Of a stretch of 64,000 nucleotides of DNA, positions 28,896 through 38,135 are shown piece by piece. Both the position numbers and the translations under genes were made by a program. The number at the start of each line of letters is the position of its first letter. The first letter of the stretch is position 1. Under the pieces are notes generated by a model. That model was not told the origin of the DNA. It was given only the letters and a program-made list of their open reading frames with translations, and made no database searches. Origin of the DNA: Chloroflexota bacterium. GTDB lineage: Bacteria; Chloroflexota; Anaerolineae; Anaerolineales; UBA4823. Where the stretch lies: positions 3,708,202 through 3,772,201 of the forward strand of contig CP070764.1 of assembly GCA_020349245.1 (NCBI GenBank), written 5' to 3'.

Positions 28896-29252
28896 ATGCT
28901 AAATGATTGGATTTTCATTGGAGTTTTTCTTGTCTTGGCTCCGATTTTTCCTGCAATTGCCCTACTGATACCAAGATTCATTGCCCCCCGAAAACCAAAT
29001 CCCTTAAAAACTGAGACTTATGAATGTGGCATTGAAACTTATGGGGACACTTGGGTTCAATTCAAGGCTCAGTATTACATTTTTGCCCTTGTCTTTCTAA
29101 TTTTTGATATTGAAGTCGTGTTTTTATATCCCTGGGCAGTGGCTTTTGAGCAGCTTCCCATGTTCGCGGTTCTTGAAGGTGTGCTGTTCATCTTGATCTT
29201 GGTTGCTGGGTTGTTTTACACCTGGCGTAAAGGTGTCTTGGAATGGGTTTAA
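28896..29252 (+). CDS. nuoA: NADH-quinone oxidoreductase subunit A
   Basis: 118 residues with three membrane helices, the small NuoA subunit at the base of the complex I membrane arm. The loop between helices 1 and 2 holds the conserved YECGIE (Cys at the quinone-entry loop), and helix 2 carries the acidic FDIEVVF. The ATG at 28896 follows the ribosome-binding site GAGGAGCG. A strong terminator comes 20 bases after the stop, so nuoA seems to be its own transcription unit, unlike the usual nuoABCD start of the operon. NuoB, C and D are not in the window. Confidence 0.95.
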   Translation: MLNDWIFIGVFLVLAPIFPAIALLIPRFIAPRKPNPLKTETYECGIETYGDTWVQFKAQYYIFALVFLIFDIEVVFLYPWAVAFEQLPMFAVLEGVLFILILVAGLFYTWRKGVLEWV

Positions 29253-29352: not shown

Positions 29353-30564
29353 ATGAGCGATCCTATTAATTCTATTGCAGAATGGCTGCGGTCGATAATG
29401 TCTGGATGGGGATTATCAGAAGGTTTGATCACCGTGATCCTGGCAGTGGTTGGAGTCGTGATCTTGGCGACAACGGTGCTGGTGATTGATATCCTGTTGG
29501 TCTGGATCGAAAGAAAAATGGTTGCCAGGTTTCAGGATCGCTTGGGACCCAACCGGGTGGGTCCATTTGGGATTATTCAACCTATTGCAGATGTAATCAA
29601 ATTGTTAATCAAGGAAGATATCTTACCGAACGGTGCGGATAAGTTCATCTTCAATCTTGCGCCAATTTTCGCGCTGGCATCTGTTCTATTATTGTGGGCT
29701 GTTGTTCCTTTTGCACCAACAGTTATCGGTGCGGATATCAATGTTGCCGTCCTGTATGTAGTCGGCATTGGTGCAGTGGGGACCTTGGGCATCATCATGG
29801 CTGGTTGGGCCTCCAATAATAAATATGCTTTGCTGGGGGCTTTCCGGACAGTAGCCCAGATGATCGCGTATGAAGTTCCCATGGTTATTGCCCTGCTAGT
29901 GCCCGTTCTGCTCGCCCGTTCAATGGGAATGCAGTCGATTGTCAATGCACAGAGTCCCTGGTACATACTCGTCGTCCCGCTAGCCGCAGTGATTTTATTC
30001 ATTTCTTCCATCGCGGAGCTGGGCAGGACACCTTTTGATATCAGTGAGGCAGAATCAGAGATTGTTGCTGGATTTCACATTGAATACACCGGGATGAAAT
30101 TCGGATTGTTTTATGCGGGTGAACTGCTGCATGCCTTGACCGTATCCGCCTTGATCTCAACCCTGTTTTTAGGTGGATGGCGAGGTCCGTTTGTTGATCA
30201 GTTGCCGATACTTGGGCCAGTTTACCTGTTCATTAAAGCTTTCCTTGTCTATTATCTAATCATGTGGGTACGCTATTCATTCCCGCGAGTTCGAATCGAC
30301 CAGATGCTGGGTTTCAATTGGAAATTCTTGACGCCTCTCGCATTGTTACTGCTTATCGTTGTTGCCATCTTGGATAAACTACTGGTTGGTACCTCTCAGG
30401 TGGTGTACGTCTTGGTGATGTTGGCAGCCAATTTAGCCATTGTTTGGGCCACTGTCCTCATCCTGCGTAGATATGCCCGTTTTGAGCGGAAGCGCATTGG
30501 GGAGGAAAGACCAGTCGCGGTTTCCCCGACCACTGAAAGAAACGAATTTGTGGGACAGGAGTGA
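29353..30564 (+). CDS. nuoH: NADH-quinone oxidoreductase subunit H
   Basis: 403 residues, about 60-70 longer than many NuoH proteins. Typical blocks: ERKMVARFQDRLGPNRVGPFG near residue 55, the quinone-chamber loop AELGRTPFDISEAESEIVAGFHIEYTGMKF near 220, and late RYSFPRVRIDQML. NuoH joins the membrane arm to the peripheral arm and forms part of the quinone tunnel. The extra length is at the N-terminus and at a charged C-terminal tail after residue 370. It opens the nuoHJKLMMN run; the next start is two bases after its stop. Confidence 0.95.
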   Translation: MSDPINSIAEWLRSIMSGWGLSEGLITVILAVVGVVILATTVLVIDILLVWIERKMVARFQDRLGPNRVGPFGIIQPIADVIKLLIKEDILPNGADKFIFNLAPIFALASVLLLWAVVPFAPTVIGADINVAVLYVVGIGAVGTLGIIMAGWASNNKYALLGAFRTVAQMIAYEVPMVIALLVPVLLARSMGMQSIVNAQSPWYILVVPLAAVILFISSIAELGRTPFDISEAESEIVAGFHIEYTGMKFGLFYAGELLHALTVSALISTLFLGGWRGPFVDQLPILGPVYLFIKAFLVYYLIMWVRYSFPRVRIDQMLGFNWKFLTPLALLLLIVVAILDKLLVGTSQVVYVLVMLAANLAIVWATVLILRRYARFERKRIGEERPVAVSPTTERNEFVGQE

Positions 30565-30565
30565 G

Positions 30566-31081
30566 ATGATGACGGTTTTGCAAGTGATTTTCTTAATTAC
30601 TGCGGTCGTGACGCTTGGGGCAGCTGTAATGGTCGTCACCGCTCGAAATCTGATCCACTCTGCCCTTTGGTTGATTCTCTCCTTATTTGGGGTTGCGGTG
30701 ATGTATGGATTGCTGAATGCTACTTTCTTTACAGTGATCCAGGTGGTGATATATATCGGGGCGATCGCAATATTGATGATATTTGCCATCATGTTGACCC
30801 GCCGGGTGATTCAAGATCCTGGGAGTAGCGTTAATAGAGGCTGGTGGTTAGCAGGGTTGATGTCACTGGTTCTGTTCACAGCCTTGGTATGGATGTTCAG
30901 CACCTGGACTGGATTTCATACAACACTGCCTGAAATGCCCGCCGGTATTGACCCGATTGAATTATTAGGGACTGCTCTGGTATCTCCAAGTGGATATGTC
31001 ATTCCCTTTGAAATCGCTTCAGTGTTACTCGTAGCTGCATTAATTGGCGCGGTAGTGGTGGCCTGGGAGAGAAAATCATGA
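30566..31081 (+). CDS. nuoJ: NADH-quinone oxidoreductase subunit J
   Basis: 171 residues with five membrane helices. It contains the NuoJ block RNLIHSALWLILSLFGVAVMYGLL and the pi-bulge helix VIYIGAIAILMIFAIML. The start is ATG 30566; the ribosome-binding site CAGGAG lies at 30556-30561, inside the end of nuoH. A longer open frame upstream overlaps nuoH and is not used. NuoI, which usually lies between H and J, is missing. The stop overlaps the nuoK start by four bases. Confidence 0.94.
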   Translation: MMTVLQVIFLITAVVTLGAAVMVVTARNLIHSALWLILSLFGVAVMYGLLNATFFTVIQVVIYIGAIAILMIFAIMLTRRVIQDPGSSVNRGWWLAGLMSLVLFTALVWMFSTWTGFHTTLPEMPAGIDPIELLGTALVSPSGYVIPFEIASVLLVAALIGAVVVAWERKS

Positions 31082-31386
31082 TCTCATTATCCTATTTTCT
31101 AGTTTTTTCCGCGGCTTTATTCTGTATCGGATTGTATGGGGTGTTAGCACGCAAGAATGCGATCGCGATTCTTATGGGAATCGAATTGATGTTGAATGCT
31201 GTGATAATCAACCTTATCGCCTTTTGGCGTTTTCGCGGCCCTGAGATGATCGCCGGTCAGGCTTTTGGGATCATTGTTTTTGCTGTTGCTGCGGCAGAGG
31301 TAGCCGTGGGTCTAGCTTTATTCATTGCCATATATCGCCGTCGAAACACGATCGCTGCTGACGAGATCGATCTTTTGAAATGGTGA
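31078..31386 (+). CDS. nuoK: NADH-quinone oxidoreductase subunit K
   Basis: 102 residues with three membrane helices, normal for NuoK. The two conserved proton-path glutamates are in GIELMLNAVIINL (helix 2) and AAAEVAVGLAL (helix 3). NuoK carries protons in the central water channel of the membrane arm. Its ATG overlaps the nuoJ stop (ATGA). Confidence 0.96.
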   Translation: MISLSYFLVFSAALFCIGLYGVLARKNAIAILMGIELMLNAVIINLIAFWRFRGPEMIAGQAFGIIVFAVAAAEVAVGLALFIAIYRRRNTIAADEIDLLKW

Positions 31387-31399
31387 TAGGAGGAATTTA

Positions 31400-33571
31400 A
31401 TGGAATCATCGACACTTGTATGGCTGTTGCCTGCTCCTCCATTAGTTGCATTTTTCATAATCATGTTGTTGACCAATCGCAGCAAGGGATTGAGTCACTT
31501 TCTTGGGGTTGGTGCAGCATTTCTTTCATTTGTTGGCAGCATGGCCATCGTTGTTTTGGCTCTTCAATCTGGGCACCTTGGGGAAGAGCCATTTACATCA
31601 GTCCTCAATTGGATTCCAACCGCAGACACATGGTTCCAGATCGGCGTCTGGGTAGATCCGCTAACGGTGGGGACGCTGTTCTTTGTGGCAATCACGATTT
31701 TGATGATCTTCATTTACAGTATTGGGTACCACAACTATGGACAGCCAAAGGGTGATCATGATGCACCTGGCCTGCCACCTCATGGAGCGACTGTCGAGGA
31801 TGAGCATGGACATAAACACAGGGTGCCTTCCATCGAACCGATGTATTCACGGTTTTTTGCATTTATATCTCTGTTTGCGTTTGGGATGTATGTCCTGGTG
31901 GTCTCCAATAACCTGCTGACCCTCTTTGTCGGCTGGGAGATCATGGGTTTATGCTCGTATCTGCTGATCGGATTTTGGTATGCCAAACCCTCGGCCAGGG
32001 CAGCGGCAATAAAGGCATTTTTGACTACCCGGGTCGGTGATGTGATTATGCTCCTCGGTCTGGCTTATTTGTACTCGTTGGCAGGCAGTTTAAGCTACGA
32101 TGTGATCTTCTCGGAGGAGACACTCCACCTTCTGACCTCAACCAGTGCCCCCGTTTTAGGGGTTTCTGCCGCAGTGCTGATTGGCCTCTTCCTGTTCATT
32201 GGTACGATTGGAAAATCCGCTCAGTGGCCATTGCATGTCTGGTTACCAGATGCCATGGAAGGTCCCACCCCGGTTTCGGCGATGATCCATGCAGCCACAA
32301 TGGTCTCAGCTGGTGTCTACCTGGTAGTCAGAGTTTTCCCGATCATCTCAGCGGGTATGGTCCATGGCGAGCCTACCGTGACGATGAATTTAATGGCTTT
32401 CATCGGTGCTTTCACTGGGCTCTTTGCTGCCACGATCGCGGTTGCCCAAAATGATATCAAACGGGTCCTGGCCTATTCAACCATATCGCAGCTGGGTTAC
32501 ATGATTGCCGCAATCGGTATCGGGGCATACGTTGCCGCAGCTTTTCACCTCTTTACCCACGCTTTCTTCAAAGCATTGTTGTTCTTGGGTTCTGGTTCAG
32601 TGATCCACGGCGTAGAGCATGGTGTGCTCCATACCGGCGAGGAGGTCGACCCCCAGAATATGTTCAACATGGGCGGGTTACGAAAGAAAATGCCGATCAC
32701 ATTCTGGACTTTTTTGATCGGTGGTTTTGCCCTATCAGGTTTCCCCTTTATCACTGCAGGATTCTGGTCCAAGGACGAAATCCTGGCTGATGCTTTTGCC
32801 CATTCGAGCTGGGCGGTGCTGATCGTCTTGGCATTGGCAGCCTTATTAACTGCCTTCTACACGATGCGCCAGATCACGCTTACCTTCCTGGGAAAATCAC
32901 GCACGGAGTCAGCCGAGCATGCGGTAGAGTCAAAGTGGACCATGACATTCCCCTTGGTCTTTCTGGCTGCGTTTGCAATCATCGCTGGCTGGCCAGGTAT
33001 CCCCGGTGATTTCCCAATTATCGGTGGGTTTATCCCAAATTTCATCCATGAATTTATCGGGGAGACTTTAGCTGAACATCCTGAGACGATTACATTCAAT
33101 TGGATTCCTTTGTTGATTTCCTTGGCGGTTTCCCTGGGTGGATTATTCCTGGGCTGGCTCGTGTACAAGGATGTCCCGGCAGGTGCACCCGATCCTCTCG
33201 AGAAGCCTCTTGGTCCAATCTATCGTCTGTTGAAAAACAAGTATTACTTTGATGAGCTCTACGACTTGATTTTTGTGCGGCCTGCGTATTGGATGTCGCG
33301 TACCTTCACCTACCTTTGGCTTGATAGAAAGATCATCGATGGTGTCCTTCATACGGTATCCCGGGTGTCATTCTCTTTGGGCGGTTTATTGCGGAACTAT
33401 ATTGACAAACCGATCGTGAACGGCTTTGGTGATTTTGTTGGTGAAAGCGTGAAACGTCTCGGTAAATCGGCACGGTTTATCCAGACCGGTCGGATACAGC
33501 AATACATGGTAATGGCATTGATCATTGCTTTTGGCACACTGTTTTATTACCTGTTTATTTTGTCGCAGTAA
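31400..33571 (+). CDS. nuoL: NADH-quinone oxidoreductase subunit L
   Basis: 723 residues, the distal Mrp-type antiporter subunit. Conserved proton residues: the TM5 Glu in GWEIMGLCSYLLIGFW, the TM7 Lys in GKSAQWPLHVWLPDAMEGPTPVSA, and the TM8 His/Lys region. A long C-terminal lateral helix follows a charged loop near residue 600. An insertion of about 40 residues rich in His, Asp, Glu and Gly lies near residues 112-145, in the loop before YSRFFAF; it would face solvent. AGGAGG at 31388-31393 is its ribosome-binding site. Length is above the E. coli subunit (613). Confidence 0.96.
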   Translation: MESSTLVWLLPAPPLVAFFIIMLLTNRSKGLSHFLGVGAAFLSFVGSMAIVVLALQSGHLGEEPFTSVLNWIPTADTWFQIGVWVDPLTVGTLFFVAITILMIFIYSIGYHNYGQPKGDHDAPGLPPHGATVEDEHGHKHRVPSIEPMYSRFFAFISLFAFGMYVLVVSNNLLTLFVGWEIMGLCSYLLIGFWYAKPSARAAAIKAFLTTRVGDVIMLLGLAYLYSLAGSLSYDVIFSEETLHLLTSTSAPVLGVSAAVLIGLFLFIGTIGKSAQWPLHVWLPDAMEGPTPVSAMIHAATMVSAGVYLVVRVFPIISAGMVHGEPTVTMNLMAFIGAFTGLFAATIAVAQNDIKRVLAYSTISQLGYMIAAIGIGAYVAAAFHLFTHAFFKALLFLGSGSVIHGVEHGVLHTGEEVDPQNMFNMGGLRKKMPITFWTFLIGGFALSGFPFITAGFWSKDEILADAFAHSSWAVLIVLALAALLTAFYTMRQITLTFLGKSRTESAEHAVESKWTMTFPLVFLAAFAIIAGWPGIPGDFPIIGGFIPNFIHEFIGETLAEHPETITFNWIPLLISLAVSLGGLFLGWLVYKDVPAGAPDPLEKPLGPIYRLLKNKYYFDELYDLIFVRPAYWMSRTFTYLWLDRKIIDGVLHTVSRVSFSLGGLLRNYIDKPIVNGFGDFVGESVKRLGKSARFIQTGRIQQYMVMALIIAFGTLFYYLFILSQ

Positions 33572-33635
33572 AGATTTGTTTGACTGGACGTAACTATATG
33601 GAAATTAATCCAAATCAAGGATGCAGGAGCTAAGA

Positions 33636-35192
33636 ATGGAATTCATCTTGAATTATCTGCTCAGCTTGATCCTTTTTACCCCAGCGGCAGTTGCTATCTT
33701 GGTCCTTCTTTTGCCACGAGGAGAGGTGAAACTGCAGCGATGGGTAGCCTTCTTGGGAAGCCTAATTCCCTTGGCATTATCTCTCGTCCTGTGGTTTAAC
33801 TTCAAACCCGATCAGCCAGGGTTTCAATTCGAGGAGATGTACGTGTGGTATGCGCCGATCAATTCCTCATTCCACCTGGGGGTGGATGGGATCTCGTTGG
33901 TCATGGTAGTTCTCACCACACTACTCACTCCACTTGCTATTCTGGCATCCTACAGCATAAAGGAACGCGTCAAGGTGTATATGTTTTTCTTCTTGATGCT
34001 GGAAATGGGGATGCTGGGAGTTTTCCTCTCATTGGACCTGCTGATCTTCTTCGTTTTCTGGGAGCTCGGACTGGTTCCAATGTATTTCCTGATCAATCAA
34101 TGGGGAAGTGAGAAAGGAGAGCGGGAAATCTGGGGGCGAAAAATCAAAGCACGTACTTATGCTTCCTTCAAATTCATGATTTACACGATGGCAGGATCTT
34201 TGGGTTTGCTGCTGGCGATCCAGCTAATTGGCGTCGTGGCAGGCACATTTGATATGCCGGTTTTGTTCGAGCGTATGGGGAGTGTAGAGGGAACATTAAT
34301 GGGGTTTCCTGTCAGCACGGTGAAAACCGTGGCATTCTGGGCGTTCGTTGTAGCCTTCGCGATCAAGGTGCCGGTCTGGCCATTCCATACCTGGTTGCCC
34401 GATGCTCACACGGAGGCACCAACTGCAGGTTCCATGATTCTGGCAGGTGTTTTGCTGAAACTGGGAGCCTACGGTTTTCTACGATTGGTCCTGCCGCTCT
34501 ATCCAGATGAATCGAAGTATTTCGCCGCAGCTCTTGCCTTCCTGGCGACCATGGCGATCATTTTTGGGGCACTGGCTTCTTATGGTCAAAATGATTTCAA
34601 GCGGTTGGTGGCATATTCTTCTGTCAACCATATGGGTTTTGTGATCTTGGGTGTTGCTGCTGCCGCATTTGCGATAAATTCTGAAAATGCAACCATAGCC
34701 CTGAATGGAGCGGTGTTGCAAATGTTTAACCACGGTCTGTCTGCGGCCGGGATGTTTTTCCTCGTGGGTGTGATATATGAGCGCACACATACCCGCGATC
34801 TCAATGAATACGGGGGCTTATTCCCCCTAGTCCCTGTATATGGAGGCATCCTGATCTTTACTTCGATGGCTTCCCTGGGATTACCGGGATTGGGTGGCTT
34901 CATATCCGAATTTCTGGTGGTGCGAGGCGCATGGCCGATCTTCACCCTGTTCACAATTTTGAGCATGATTGGGCTTTTCTTCACCGGCGCCTACATTCTT
35001 AAGGGGATCAAGCAAGTTTTACATGGACCATTAAATGAGCGGTGGAAGGGACACATCAGTGAGATAAATGTCCGTGAAGCATTTGTCATCACCCCGTTGA
35101 TGGTGCTTATGCTGCTGATCGGTATCTGGCCGGCGATGCTGCTGGATGTGATTAACCGGGCTGTGATGATGTTCTATTCGCTCTATTCATGA
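33636..35192 (+). CDS. nuoM: NADH-quinone oxidoreductase subunit M, canonical copy
   Basis: 518 residues from the ATG at 33636, set by CAGGAG at 33624-33629; an in-frame ATG at 33621 is too early. All proton-path residues of an antiporter-like subunit are visible: Glu in FWELGLVPMYFL (TM5), Lys in AIKVPVWPFHTWLPDAHTEAPT (TM7), Lys in GVLLKLGAYG (TM8), and Glu in GFISEFLVV (TM12). A short charged loop, WGSEKGEREIWGRK, follows TM5. It is the first of two NuoM genes in tandem. Confidence 0.95.
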   Translation: MEFILNYLLSLILFTPAAVAILVLLLPRGEVKLQRWVAFLGSLIPLALSLVLWFNFKPDQPGFQFEEMYVWYAPINSSFHLGVDGISLVMVVLTTLLTPLAILASYSIKERVKVYMFFFLMLEMGMLGVFLSLDLLIFFVFWELGLVPMYFLINQWGSEKGEREIWGRKIKARTYASFKFMIYTMAGSLGLLLAIQLIGVVAGTFDMPVLFERMGSVEGTLMGFPVSTVKTVAFWAFVVAFAIKVPVWPFHTWLPDAHTEAPTAGSMILAGVLLKLGAYGFLRLVLPLYPDESKYFAAALAFLATMAIIFGALASYGQNDFKRLVAYSSVNHMGFVILGVAAAAFAINSENATIALNGAVLQMFNHGLSAAGMFFLVGVIYERTHTRDLNEYGGLFPLVPVYGGILIFTSMASLGLPGLGGFISEFLVVRGAWPIFTLFTILSMIGLFFTGAYILKGIKQVLHGPLNERWKGHISEINVREAFVITPLMVLMLLIGIWPAMLLDVINRAVMMFYSLYS

Positions 35193-35201
35193 TTGAGGTG
35201 A

Positions 35202-36677
35202 ATGATGGCATTCCCATTTCTTAGTGTAATCATTTTTACCCCTATCATCACCGGTGTTTTTCTCTTGTTAATTCCCGGTGAAAGGAAAACAGAAATCCGG
35301 ATGACTGCCCTGGCAGCATCCCTGATCGCCTTGGCACTATCGACCTGGGTTTATTTCTCATACGATCCAGCCGTAGCTGGATACCAGTTCATTGAGAAAT
35401 ATGATTGGTTCCCAACTTTAGGCATCTCATACTATGTCGGTGTAGATGGGATGAGTGCTCCTTTGCTGATCTTGACTGGTATTGTCATGTTCACCGGTGT
35501 TTTGATCTCCTGGGGCATCGATGACAGGCCGCGAGAATTTTTCGCATTTCTATTCATCCTTGCATCAGGCGTTTTTGGGGTTTTTGCTTCTCTGGATTTA
35601 TTTGGATTGATTTTCTTTTACGAAATCGCTGTATTTCCGATGTACCTGCTGATCGCCATCTGGGGTTGGAAGGTCACCCGGGAGTACGCGGCGATGAAGT
35701 TGACTTTGTACCTATTCATCGGATCGGTCATCGCACTGGTTGGAATATTGGCGATGTATTTCTCCTCCGGCTTAAGCACGTTTAACATGCTCACCTTGGA
35801 GACTGCCAATTTTTCGCCAGAGTTTCAAAGGTTCTGGTTCCCATTTGTGTTCTTTGGTTTTGCAGTCCTAGGTGGTATATTCCCCTTCCATAACTGGAGT
35901 CCGGATGGCCACGTAGCTGCACCAACGGCGGTTTCGATGTTCCACGCGGGTGTGCTGATGAAGCTGGGCGCGTTTGCTGCCTTGCGGGTAGGGATTATGC
36001 TGCTTCCGGAGGGCGCTCGCTTCCATCTGCCCTGGATCATTGTCCTTACCTTAATCAATGTCGTCTACGGTGCATTCATCGCCATGGTTCAATCCGATTT
36101 CAAATATGTTATCGGCTTCTCATCCGTATCCCATATGGGTCTGGTGTTGATGGGATTTGCCACCCTGAATGCCGATGGCATGTTGGGGGCAGGTGTGCAA
36201 ATGTTTTCGCATGGCATTATGACAGCATTATTCTTCGCAGTCGTCGGCGTGATATACGATCGAGCCCATACCAGGGAGGTGCCTAAATTGGGCGGCTTCG
36301 CGGCGTTAATGCCAATCGTTGCTGGGGCGTTTATTGTCGGTGGTCTGGTTTCGATGGGTATGCCTGGATTCTCCGGGTTTGTCGCAGAATTCCCCATATT
36401 TATGGGTTTGTGGCGTTACCAGCCCTGGATCGCTATTATTGCCTCAATTTCGATCGTTATCACGGCTTCCTATATTATCCGCATCATCGGCCGGGTATTT
36501 TTCGGAAAAATGCCAGAGGAGTTTGTCGGACATTTTGGTGATGCCACAGTCTTGGATAAAGTTGCCTTGGTTCTTTTAAGTGCGATTCTGATCGTGGTTG
36601 GTGTTTATCCAACGATCATGGTGACGATGGTTGAATCCGGCGTTGAGAACATATTGCGCCTGTTGGGAGGTGCTTAG
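35202..36677 (+). CDS. nuoM: Second NuoM-like subunit, TM7 lysine missing
   Basis: 491 residues, homologous to the NuoM before it. It keeps the TM5 Glu (FYEIAVFPMYLL), the TM8 Lys (GVLMKLGAFA) and the TM12 Glu (GFVAEFPIF). In the TM7 block, however, it reads VLGGIFPFHNWSPDGHVAAPT, with Gly-Gly-Ile where the first copy has Lys-Val-Pro, so the conserved middle lysine of the proton channel is absent. GAGGTGA precedes two adjacent ATG codons (35202, 35205). Duplicate-NuoM complex I variants are known (the so-called 2M type). Whether this copy pumps is open. The stop lies directly before the nuoN GTG. Confidence 0.93.
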   Translation: MMAFPFLSVIIFTPIITGVFLLLIPGERKTEIRMTALAASLIALALSTWVYFSYDPAVAGYQFIEKYDWFPTLGISYYVGVDGMSAPLLILTGIVMFTGVLISWGIDDRPREFFAFLFILASGVFGVFASLDLFGLIFFYEIAVFPMYLLIAIWGWKVTREYAAMKLTLYLFIGSVIALVGILAMYFSSGLSTFNMLTLETANFSPEFQRFWFPFVFFGFAVLGGIFPFHNWSPDGHVAAPTAVSMFHAGVLMKLGAFAALRVGIMLLPEGARFHLPWIIVLTLINVVYGAFIAMVQSDFKYVIGFSSVSHMGLVLMGFATLNADGMLGAGVQMFSHGIMTALFFAVVGVIYDRAHTREVPKLGGFAALMPIVAGAFIVGGLVSMGMPGFSGFVAEFPIFMGLWRYQPWIAIIASISIVITASYIIRIIGRVFFGKMPEEFVGHFGDATVLDKVALVLLSAILIVVGVYPTIMVTMVESGVENILRLLGGA

Positions 36678-38135
36678 GTGTTCAGTAGCATTGATAGCAA
36701 CATGGTTCGTGCGATACTGCCAGAAATTGGTCTTGTGGTTCTTGGCCTGGTCGTATTGGTTTACGATTTAGCTGCCCGTCAGGAAGCAAAACGTGGATTA
36801 GGTTGGTTAACCGCTGGTGGAATCGCGGTGATTTTTATTTTGACTCTGCTATTCTCTCGACCTATCGAGCAATCCATGTCCCTTTGGGGTGGAATGCTTC
36901 GCCATGATTGGTTGAGCTTTTCCTTTACCTTGCTTTTCCTGTTTGGTGCTGCAGCTACCAGTCTTTTTGCCATGGAAATAAAAGATCTTGGTCAGCGAGG
37001 GGAGTTTTACCTGTTGTTGCTCGTCTCAACCATGGGCATGATGTTGATGGCCTCCTCAGCGAACCTGGTCATGCTGTTCTTGGCTGTAGAGACGACCTCC
37101 ATCCCGCTTTATATCCTGGCAGGGTTTTATAAGCTAGATAATAAATCCACCGAATCCGGGTTTAAATACTTCCTGTTTGGGGCGATGACTTCTGCGGTCA
37201 TGCTGTATGGTTTTAGCCTGATCTTTGGTTTCACAGGGACAACCGATATCTACGAAATCACCAAGTTGGTTAATACGGGTCAATTTTCCTTACCACTTGC
37301 TATCGGAACCCTCATCCTCGTAATGGTTGGATTTGGATTCAAGGTTTCTGTGGTCCCGTTTCACTTTTGGGCACCCGATGTGTACGAGGGCGCCCCGACC
37401 CCGGTAGCAGGTTTTCTATCTACAGCTTCCAAGGCAGCGGGTTTTGCGGTCTTGATGAGAGTGCTCCTGACAGTGTATGCAGACCCGGAGATCATCCCGT
37501 ATTGGGTGATTGTTGTGGCTGCCTTGTCAGTCTTCTCGATGACGTTGGGTAATGCCTTGGCAATCCCTCAGAAGAACATCAAACGATTGTTGGCTTATTC
37601 ATCGATCGCCCATGCTGGCTACGCTTTAATTGGCATTGCCTCACTGTCGGCGTTAGGTATTGCTTCCGTGGTGTTGTACCTGGTAGTGTACGTGATTACG
37701 AACTTAACTGCCTTTGGTGTAGTGGCAGCTTTCTGGCGGGTTTCTGGTTCCGATGAGATTGCAGATTACGCTGCCTTGAGCCGACGCTCTCCCACCCTGG
37801 CAATTATTTTCCTGGTAGCTCTACTTTCTCTTGCAGGTATGCCGCCCCTCGGGGGCTTTGTTGCCAAATTCTTTGTGTTCGCTGCTGCGGTAAACGCGGG
37901 GTTGATTTGGTTGGCGATCATCGGAGTTTTGAATGCTATTGTGGGTCTCTACTACTACCTAGTAGTGTTAAAGGTTGTTTATCTTTTCCGCTCCGAGGAG
38001 GAGGATCAGCCAATTCCCCTGACACGTCCCTATGTATTAGCCCTTGCAGTCCTGACAATCAGTATTATTCTTCTGGGTACGTTATTTGGCCCCTGGGCAG
38101 AATGGTCATCGAGAGCTGCTGCGGCATTATTTTAA
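36678..38135 (+). CDS. nuoN: NADH-quinone oxidoreductase subunit N
   Basis: 485 residues with about fourteen membrane helices. NuoN markers: the TM5 Glu in FLAVETTSIPLYILAGF, the TM7 Lys in GFKVSVVPFHFWAPDVYEGAPTPVAGF, and the TM8 block STASKAAGFAVLMRV. GTG at 36678 follows the nuoM' stop with no gap; GGGAGG at 36665-36670 is the ribosome-binding site. It is the last nuo gene; a weak hairpin with a T run follows. Confidence 0.95.
   Translation: MFSSIDSNMVRAILPEIGLVVLGLVVLVYDLAARQEAKRGLGWLTAGGIAVIFILTLLFSRPIEQSMSLWGGMLRHDWLSFSFTLLFLFGAAATSLFAMEIKDLGQRGEFYLLLLVSTMGMMLMASSANLVMLFLAVETTSIPLYILAGFYKLDNKSTESGFKYFLFGAMTSAVMLYGFSLIFGFTGTTDIYEITKLVNTGQFSLPLAIGTLILVMVGFGFKVSVVPFHFWAPDVYEGAPTPVAGFLSTASKAAGFAVLMRVLLTVYADPEIIPYWVIVVAALSVFSMTLGNALAIPQKNIKRLLAYSSIAHAGYALIGIASLSALGIASVVLYLVVYVITNLTAFGVVAAFWRVSGSDEIADYAALSRRSPTLAIIFLVALLSLAGMPPLGGFVAKFFVFAAAVNAGLIWLAIIGVLNAIVGLYYYLVVLKVVYLFRSEEEDQPIPLTRPYVLALAVLTISIILLGTLFGPWAEWSSRAAAALF

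Follow-up and report, generated by a model that had tools for sequence, protein, structure and literature searches.

A second NuoM without the TM7 lysine in a Chloroflexota complex I appears to belong to a conserved subfamily

The window (the whole stretch of 64,000 nucleotides that was analysed) carries a cluster of complex I genes in the order nuoA-H-J-K-L-M1-M2-N:

28896..29252, + strand: nuoA
29353..30564, + strand: nuoH
30566..31081, + strand: nuoJ (start codon uncertain)
31078..31386, + strand: nuoK
31400..33571, + strand: nuoL, with a long lateral-helix stretch (79 residues versus 49 in E. coli)
33636..35192, + strand: nuoM1, the Lys-bearing NuoM of the same operon (alternative ORF start at 33621)
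35202..36677, + strand: nuoM2, a NuoM-type subunit without the TM7 lysine (453.8 bits against TIGR01972 NDH_I_M, where the curated cut-off for NuoM membership is 263.8; orthologues with 60-93% identity stand in the same gene order)
36678..38135, + strand: nuoN, adjoining nuoM2; terminal lysine retained

The genes for nuoB, fused nuoCD and nuoI lie approximately 70 kb past the end of the window (genome ~3841.5-3844.7 kb). No nuoE, nuoF or nuoG is present in the nuo cluster of the window or in the nuoB-nuoCD-nuoI stretch. A complete 14-gene complex I is encoded elsewhere in the same genome (799-816 kb). Judged by gene content and order, the window complex corresponds to the 2M complex I of Chloroflexi: the nuo operon has two adjacent nuoM genes (33636-35192 and 35202-36677), nuoB, fused nuoCD and nuoI are located apart from nuoLM1M2N, and the lateral helix of NuoL is lengthened. 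These features bear out the preliminary description, which had assigned M2 to a 2M-type complex as its second NuoM. Such complexes are already known. Those of Chloroflexi were described by Chadwick et al. 2018, as far as the passages citing that work in PMC7117926 go, and one is encoded by Cagg_1620-1631 of Chloroflexus aggregans (PMC8004040). They have in common with the window complex the order L-M1-M2-N, the separate nuoB, fused nuoCD and nuoI, the long NuoL lateral helix and the lack of nuoEFG in the clusters read; no difference appeared in the features tested. A hydrogenase subunit of the HycC type is not indicated, as the operon holds no hydrogenase genes and the neighbours of M2 are nuo genes. 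In other 2M complexes of Chloroflexota and Nitrospirota the NuoL stretch measures 75 to 79 residues. Helix length was nonetheless rejected as a diagnostic of the 2M type, because 76 to 81 residues are also reached in three complexes whose single NuoM bears the lysine (one of them in the same genome, at ~804-806 kb).

The nuoM2 reading frame is intact and encodes 491 amino acids. Alignments with E. coli NuoM, and with a survey set of 215 distinct NuoM-type sequences (88 Lys-less and 127 Lys-bearing), place its key residues as follows:

35622..35624, + strand: E141, the TM5 glutamate (E. coli E144), retained
35868..35870, + strand: L223 (codon CTA), equivalent of the TM7 lysine K234 of E. coli NuoM
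35943..35945, + strand: H248, a gained TM8 histidine at the position of E. coli NuoM L259, aligned with NuoL H254 (hhalign); candidate substitute, found in 84 of 88 Lys-less versus 0 of 127 Lys-bearing sequences
35961..35963, + strand: K254, the TM8 lysine (E. coli K265), retained
36132..36134, + strand: H311 (E. coli H322), retained
36210..36212, + strand: H337 (E. coli H348), retained
36387..36389, + strand: E396, the TM12 glutamate (E. coli E407), retained

Also, H241 and H248 of E. coli NuoM correspond to H230 and H237 of M2. The protein thus keeps the TM5 and TM12 glutamates and the TM8 lysine, as had been stated in the preliminary description, together with the two axis histidines. The TM7 lysine of the ion pair is missing, again in agreement with that description: its usual place is directly before the block GGIFPFHNW (FAIKVPVWPFHTW in canonical NuoM, FAVLGGIFPFHNW in M2). 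The lysine is retained in M1 of the same operon and in the NuoM of the second complex I of this genome (~800 kb). A frameshift or an error of sequencing or assembly is ruled out, since three genomes of the same genus show the same substitution (M2 at 91-93% identity) and dN/dS of M2 is ~0.02, equal to that of M1 (dS is close to saturation), which indicates strong purifying selection on M2. An AlphaFold2 model, for which only the four antiporter-like proteins of the window were used as input, reached a pLDDT of 56 (mostly 47-68 in TM7 and TM8), and no distances were drawn from it.

The survey shows that this loss is widespread. The TM7 position in the 88 Lys-less sequences is taken by leucine (66), isoleucine (20) or threonine (2), while the other path residues are nearly invariant: E144, H322 and E407 occur in 88/88, H348 in 87/88 and K265 in 86/88. 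M2 orthologues in the same gene order all have leucine, except for a family within the same class that has threonine, and their TM7 block hardly varies (GFAxLGGI(F/W)PFHNWSPDGH). In Nitrospirota, where the M2 set was gathered from N. moscoviensis (located by a 16S probe search), 18 of 18 sequences have isoleucine and retain the other path residues. The TM7 lysine is therefore missing from every second NuoM examined in 2M complexes of Chloroflexota and Nitrospirota. The preliminary description had named such a finding as refuting, and its suggestion that the loss is special to M2 of the source genome fails for these groups.

The Lys-less type is not restricted to 2M complexes. Ten Chloroflexota genomes from nine families encode a complex with a single, Lys-less NuoM, its gene lying between nuoL and nuoN. 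Where these operons could be read throughout, A, B, C, D, H, I, J, K, L, M and N are complete, and E, F and G are absent. In all ten complexes the NuoL lateral-helix stretch measures 51 residues, too few to span a fourth module. As the Lys-less protein can be the only NuoM of a complex, loss of the lysine is not tied to being the 'second' NuoM. Some of the genomes with a Lys-less single NuoM have a further NuoM-type gene elsewhere. One Actinomycetota genome also carries a Lys-less single NuoM, which suggests transfer between phyla. This gene adjoins nuoL and nuoN, in the unusual order L-M-N-J-K followed by another L-type ORF. A scan of viral contigs gave no relative, and none turned up in 397 Pseudomonadota genomes at E <= 1e-150, a threshold so strict that this is weak negative evidence.

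To place these proteins, we built a NuoM tree with columns 234, 259 and 265 removed (a rapid reconstruction with a single support measure). All Lys-less NuoMs (M2 of Nitrospira, M2 of Chloroflexota and the single-NuoM type) form one clade with an SH-aLRT of 100 and a branch length of 0.51. Lys-bearing NuoMs from single-NuoM complexes of Chloroflexota stand closest to them, and the M1 proteins of Chloroflexota and Nitrospira occupy separate positions. The Nitrospira branch is long (1.24) and hence calls for caution; the shared signature residues are concordant with the clade. Tree and residues together give good support to the view that the Lys-less NuoM is a distinct monophyletic subfamily, old and fixed, in three bacterial phyla. 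M2 shows its marks, namely a residue other than lysine at 234, the TM8 histidine (for which a rare alternative exists in the subfamily) and a place in the one clade. If the clade is right, M2 would have a single origin, and its pairing with different M1 proteins would have arisen more than once.

Which other changes accompany the loss was read from a table of the ionisable columns in the NuoM alignments. No lysine or arginine is gained in or near TM7, and a compensating lysine one or two turns away, for which the preliminary description had proposed to look, is rejected. Within the TM7-TM8 core just one ionisable residue is consistently gained, the histidine at position 259 (E. coli numbering), in the core column that best separates the two groups; the Lys-bearing sequences have leucine here in 127 of 127 cases. 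The four Lys-less sequences without this histidine have a glutamate two residues before the TM8 lysine, or threonine at the TM7 position. NuoL H254, against which hhalign sets H248 of M2, is located in helix VIII next to the TM5 glutamate, as a member of the charged-residue chain that follows the membrane arm (the central axis; PMC4938563), and belongs to the NuoL input path (PMC13324432). The tryptophan beside the TM5 glutamate in Lys-bearing NuoM is replaced by tyrosine. Gain of His259 and loss of the lysine fall on one branch, which points to a remodelled site without proving compensation by the histidine. The M2 site looks like one remodelled around the lost lysine, and M2 itself more like a naturally rewired pump subunit than like a broken copy.

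Two further sets of changes were seen. A TM4 glutamate (position 124, E. coli numbering) occurs in 112 of the 127 Lys-bearing and in 0 of the 88 Lys-less sequences, and 88/88 Lys-less sequences lack both charged residues, those at 250 and 313, as if the change had been charge-balanced. Two M2 lineages of the same class (L126:4618-6561; L136:4907-6412, also L055) have in addition lost the TM8 lysine 265 (HGGVLKAT, HAGVLKNV), with a lysine one residue earlier; this is perhaps a further remodelling step, or decay.

Compared with canonical NuoM/ND4, M2 has the same family fold, TM5 glutamate, TM8 lysine, both histidines and TM12 glutamate, whereas the canonical proteins have the TM7 lysine, Leu259, tryptophan beside the TM5 glutamate, mostly the TM4 glutamate, and arginine or lysine at 313. 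A natural precedent is Leu208 of HycC from E. coli formate hydrogenlyase (PMC5061711). This protein likewise has leucine at the K234 position, within a very similar block (GFGLLAGIIPLHGW), and retains the TM5 glutamate and TM8 lysine; differently from M2, it is a hydrogenase subunit with phenylalanine instead of histidine at 259 and asparagine at 322. As HycC lacks the lysine without having the histidine, two or more separate losses within the wider family are probable.

We consider it fairly probable that M2 is a conserved, working proton-translocating module of the Lys-less subfamily, next to NuoN, in which the TM5 glutamate is controlled without a TM7 lysine. In the scheme that follows, the spatial order, what H248 does, the route of the protons and pumping by M2 are what we infer. 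The TM7 lysine would have been replaced long ago by leucine, isoleucine or threonine, and the surrounding site rebuilt. Protons would enter from the N side via K301, H237 and H248 to the TM8 lysine K254, and from there pass H311 and H337 to the TM12 glutamate E396. E141 in TM5 would sense the state of the neighbouring subunit, and its control could be taken over from the TM5 Glu-TM7 Lys pair by the NuoL-type H248, by the terminal lysine of the adjacent NuoN (the K395 equivalent), or by both. The four Lys-less sequences and HycC, which do without the histidine, count against H248 as the substitute. Concerning NuoN, its gene adjoins that of M2 in every 2M locus whose read stretch includes nuoN, and its terminal lysine is kept in 43 of 43 NuoN sequences. 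The gene order L-M-N mirrors the subunit order in known complex I structures, so M2 probably abuts NuoN, and the terminal lysine would then face the TM5 glutamate of M2.

A less likely reading, to which we nevertheless give some weight, makes M2 a non-pumping spacer or coupling module: a lateral relay of charge or protons between NuoN and M1 that releases no proton, so that 2M complexes would gain no fifth one. Mutagenesis has shown the TM5 Glu-TM7 Lys pair to be essential for catalysis in the canonical NuoM of E. coli and Paracoccus complex I (PMC9802314), and the loss of the TM8 lysine in the two M2 lineages above would fit as well. However, essentiality in canonical NuoM need not transfer to the Lys-less type, the TM8 lysine, both histidines and the TM12 glutamate are retained in 86 to 88 of the 88 sequences, and the same type also serves as sole NuoM in complete complexes. 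These last two observations bear equally on the earlier proposal of an altered or absent proton path in 'this copy': the path must indeed differ from that of textbook NuoM, but neither its absence nor its peculiarity to this copy is supported.

It might also be argued that the TM8 histidine, being of the NuoL/MrpA kind, marks a change of the transported ion from H+ to, for instance, Na+, and is no compensation for the lysine. H254, with which M2 aligns, is among the helix VIII residues that NuoL and MrpA share and NuoM, NuoN and MrpD do not, and these have been studied as possible positions of ion specificity (PMC4938563). The NuoL/MrpA pattern also includes the adjacent T257, M258 and V259, though, which have no match in the HAGVLMK of M2, and we regard a change of ion as improbable. 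Finally, a decaying or lineage-specific damaged copy in the source organism would explain the loss of a residue thought essential, yet it can be dismissed as next to impossible: the loss is fixed across a clade that spans phyla, dN/dS is as low as for M1, and conservation refutes lineage-specific decay.

Returning to M2 as a working module, the finding matters because NuoM of model complexes I no longer works once the TM7 lysine is mutated, and because the TM5 Glu-TM7 Lys pair is, in several mechanisms, the switch by which each antiporter-like subunit opens. A natural and strictly conserved subfamily without the lysine, which in some species provides the sole NuoM, makes the need for this switch directly testable. 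A fifth proton per cycle for 2M complex I is a hypothesis in the literature, and the present data bear on this question as well as on which NuoM was added. A broader proposal, which we put forward tentatively and rate at somewhat below even, is that a widespread class of complex I, including the 11-subunit single-NuoM forms, transduces energy through a NuoM that does without the Glu-Lys pair and uses the TM8 histidine and/or the terminal lysine of NuoN. The module beside NuoN could then dispense with the ion-pair switch, which is regarded as shared by all antiporter-like subunits. The 2M complexes would have arisen by insertion of an ordinary Lys-bearing M1 between the Lys-less type and NuoL, with M1 as the extra subunit. 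The literature searched has no mention of a fixed NuoM subfamily without the lysine, of its role as sole NuoM or of its TM8 histidine; Chadwick et al. 2018 and its supplement fall outside that coverage, which leaves priority unproven.

The 2M complex of Nitrospira (N. moscoviensis CI_1, PMC6606698) shares with the window complex an M2 of the same Lys-less clade (isoleucine in TM7, histidine in TM8) next to nuoN, and a long NuoL lateral helix. It differs in the presence of nuoG and in an M1 from another branch. This Nitrospira M1 keeps the TM7 lysine; His348 in TM11 is replaced by leucine, and, in the alignment, two residues of TM8 are deleted just before the lysine (AVVLAGLKL), which makes M1 the departing copy in TM8 and TM11 there.
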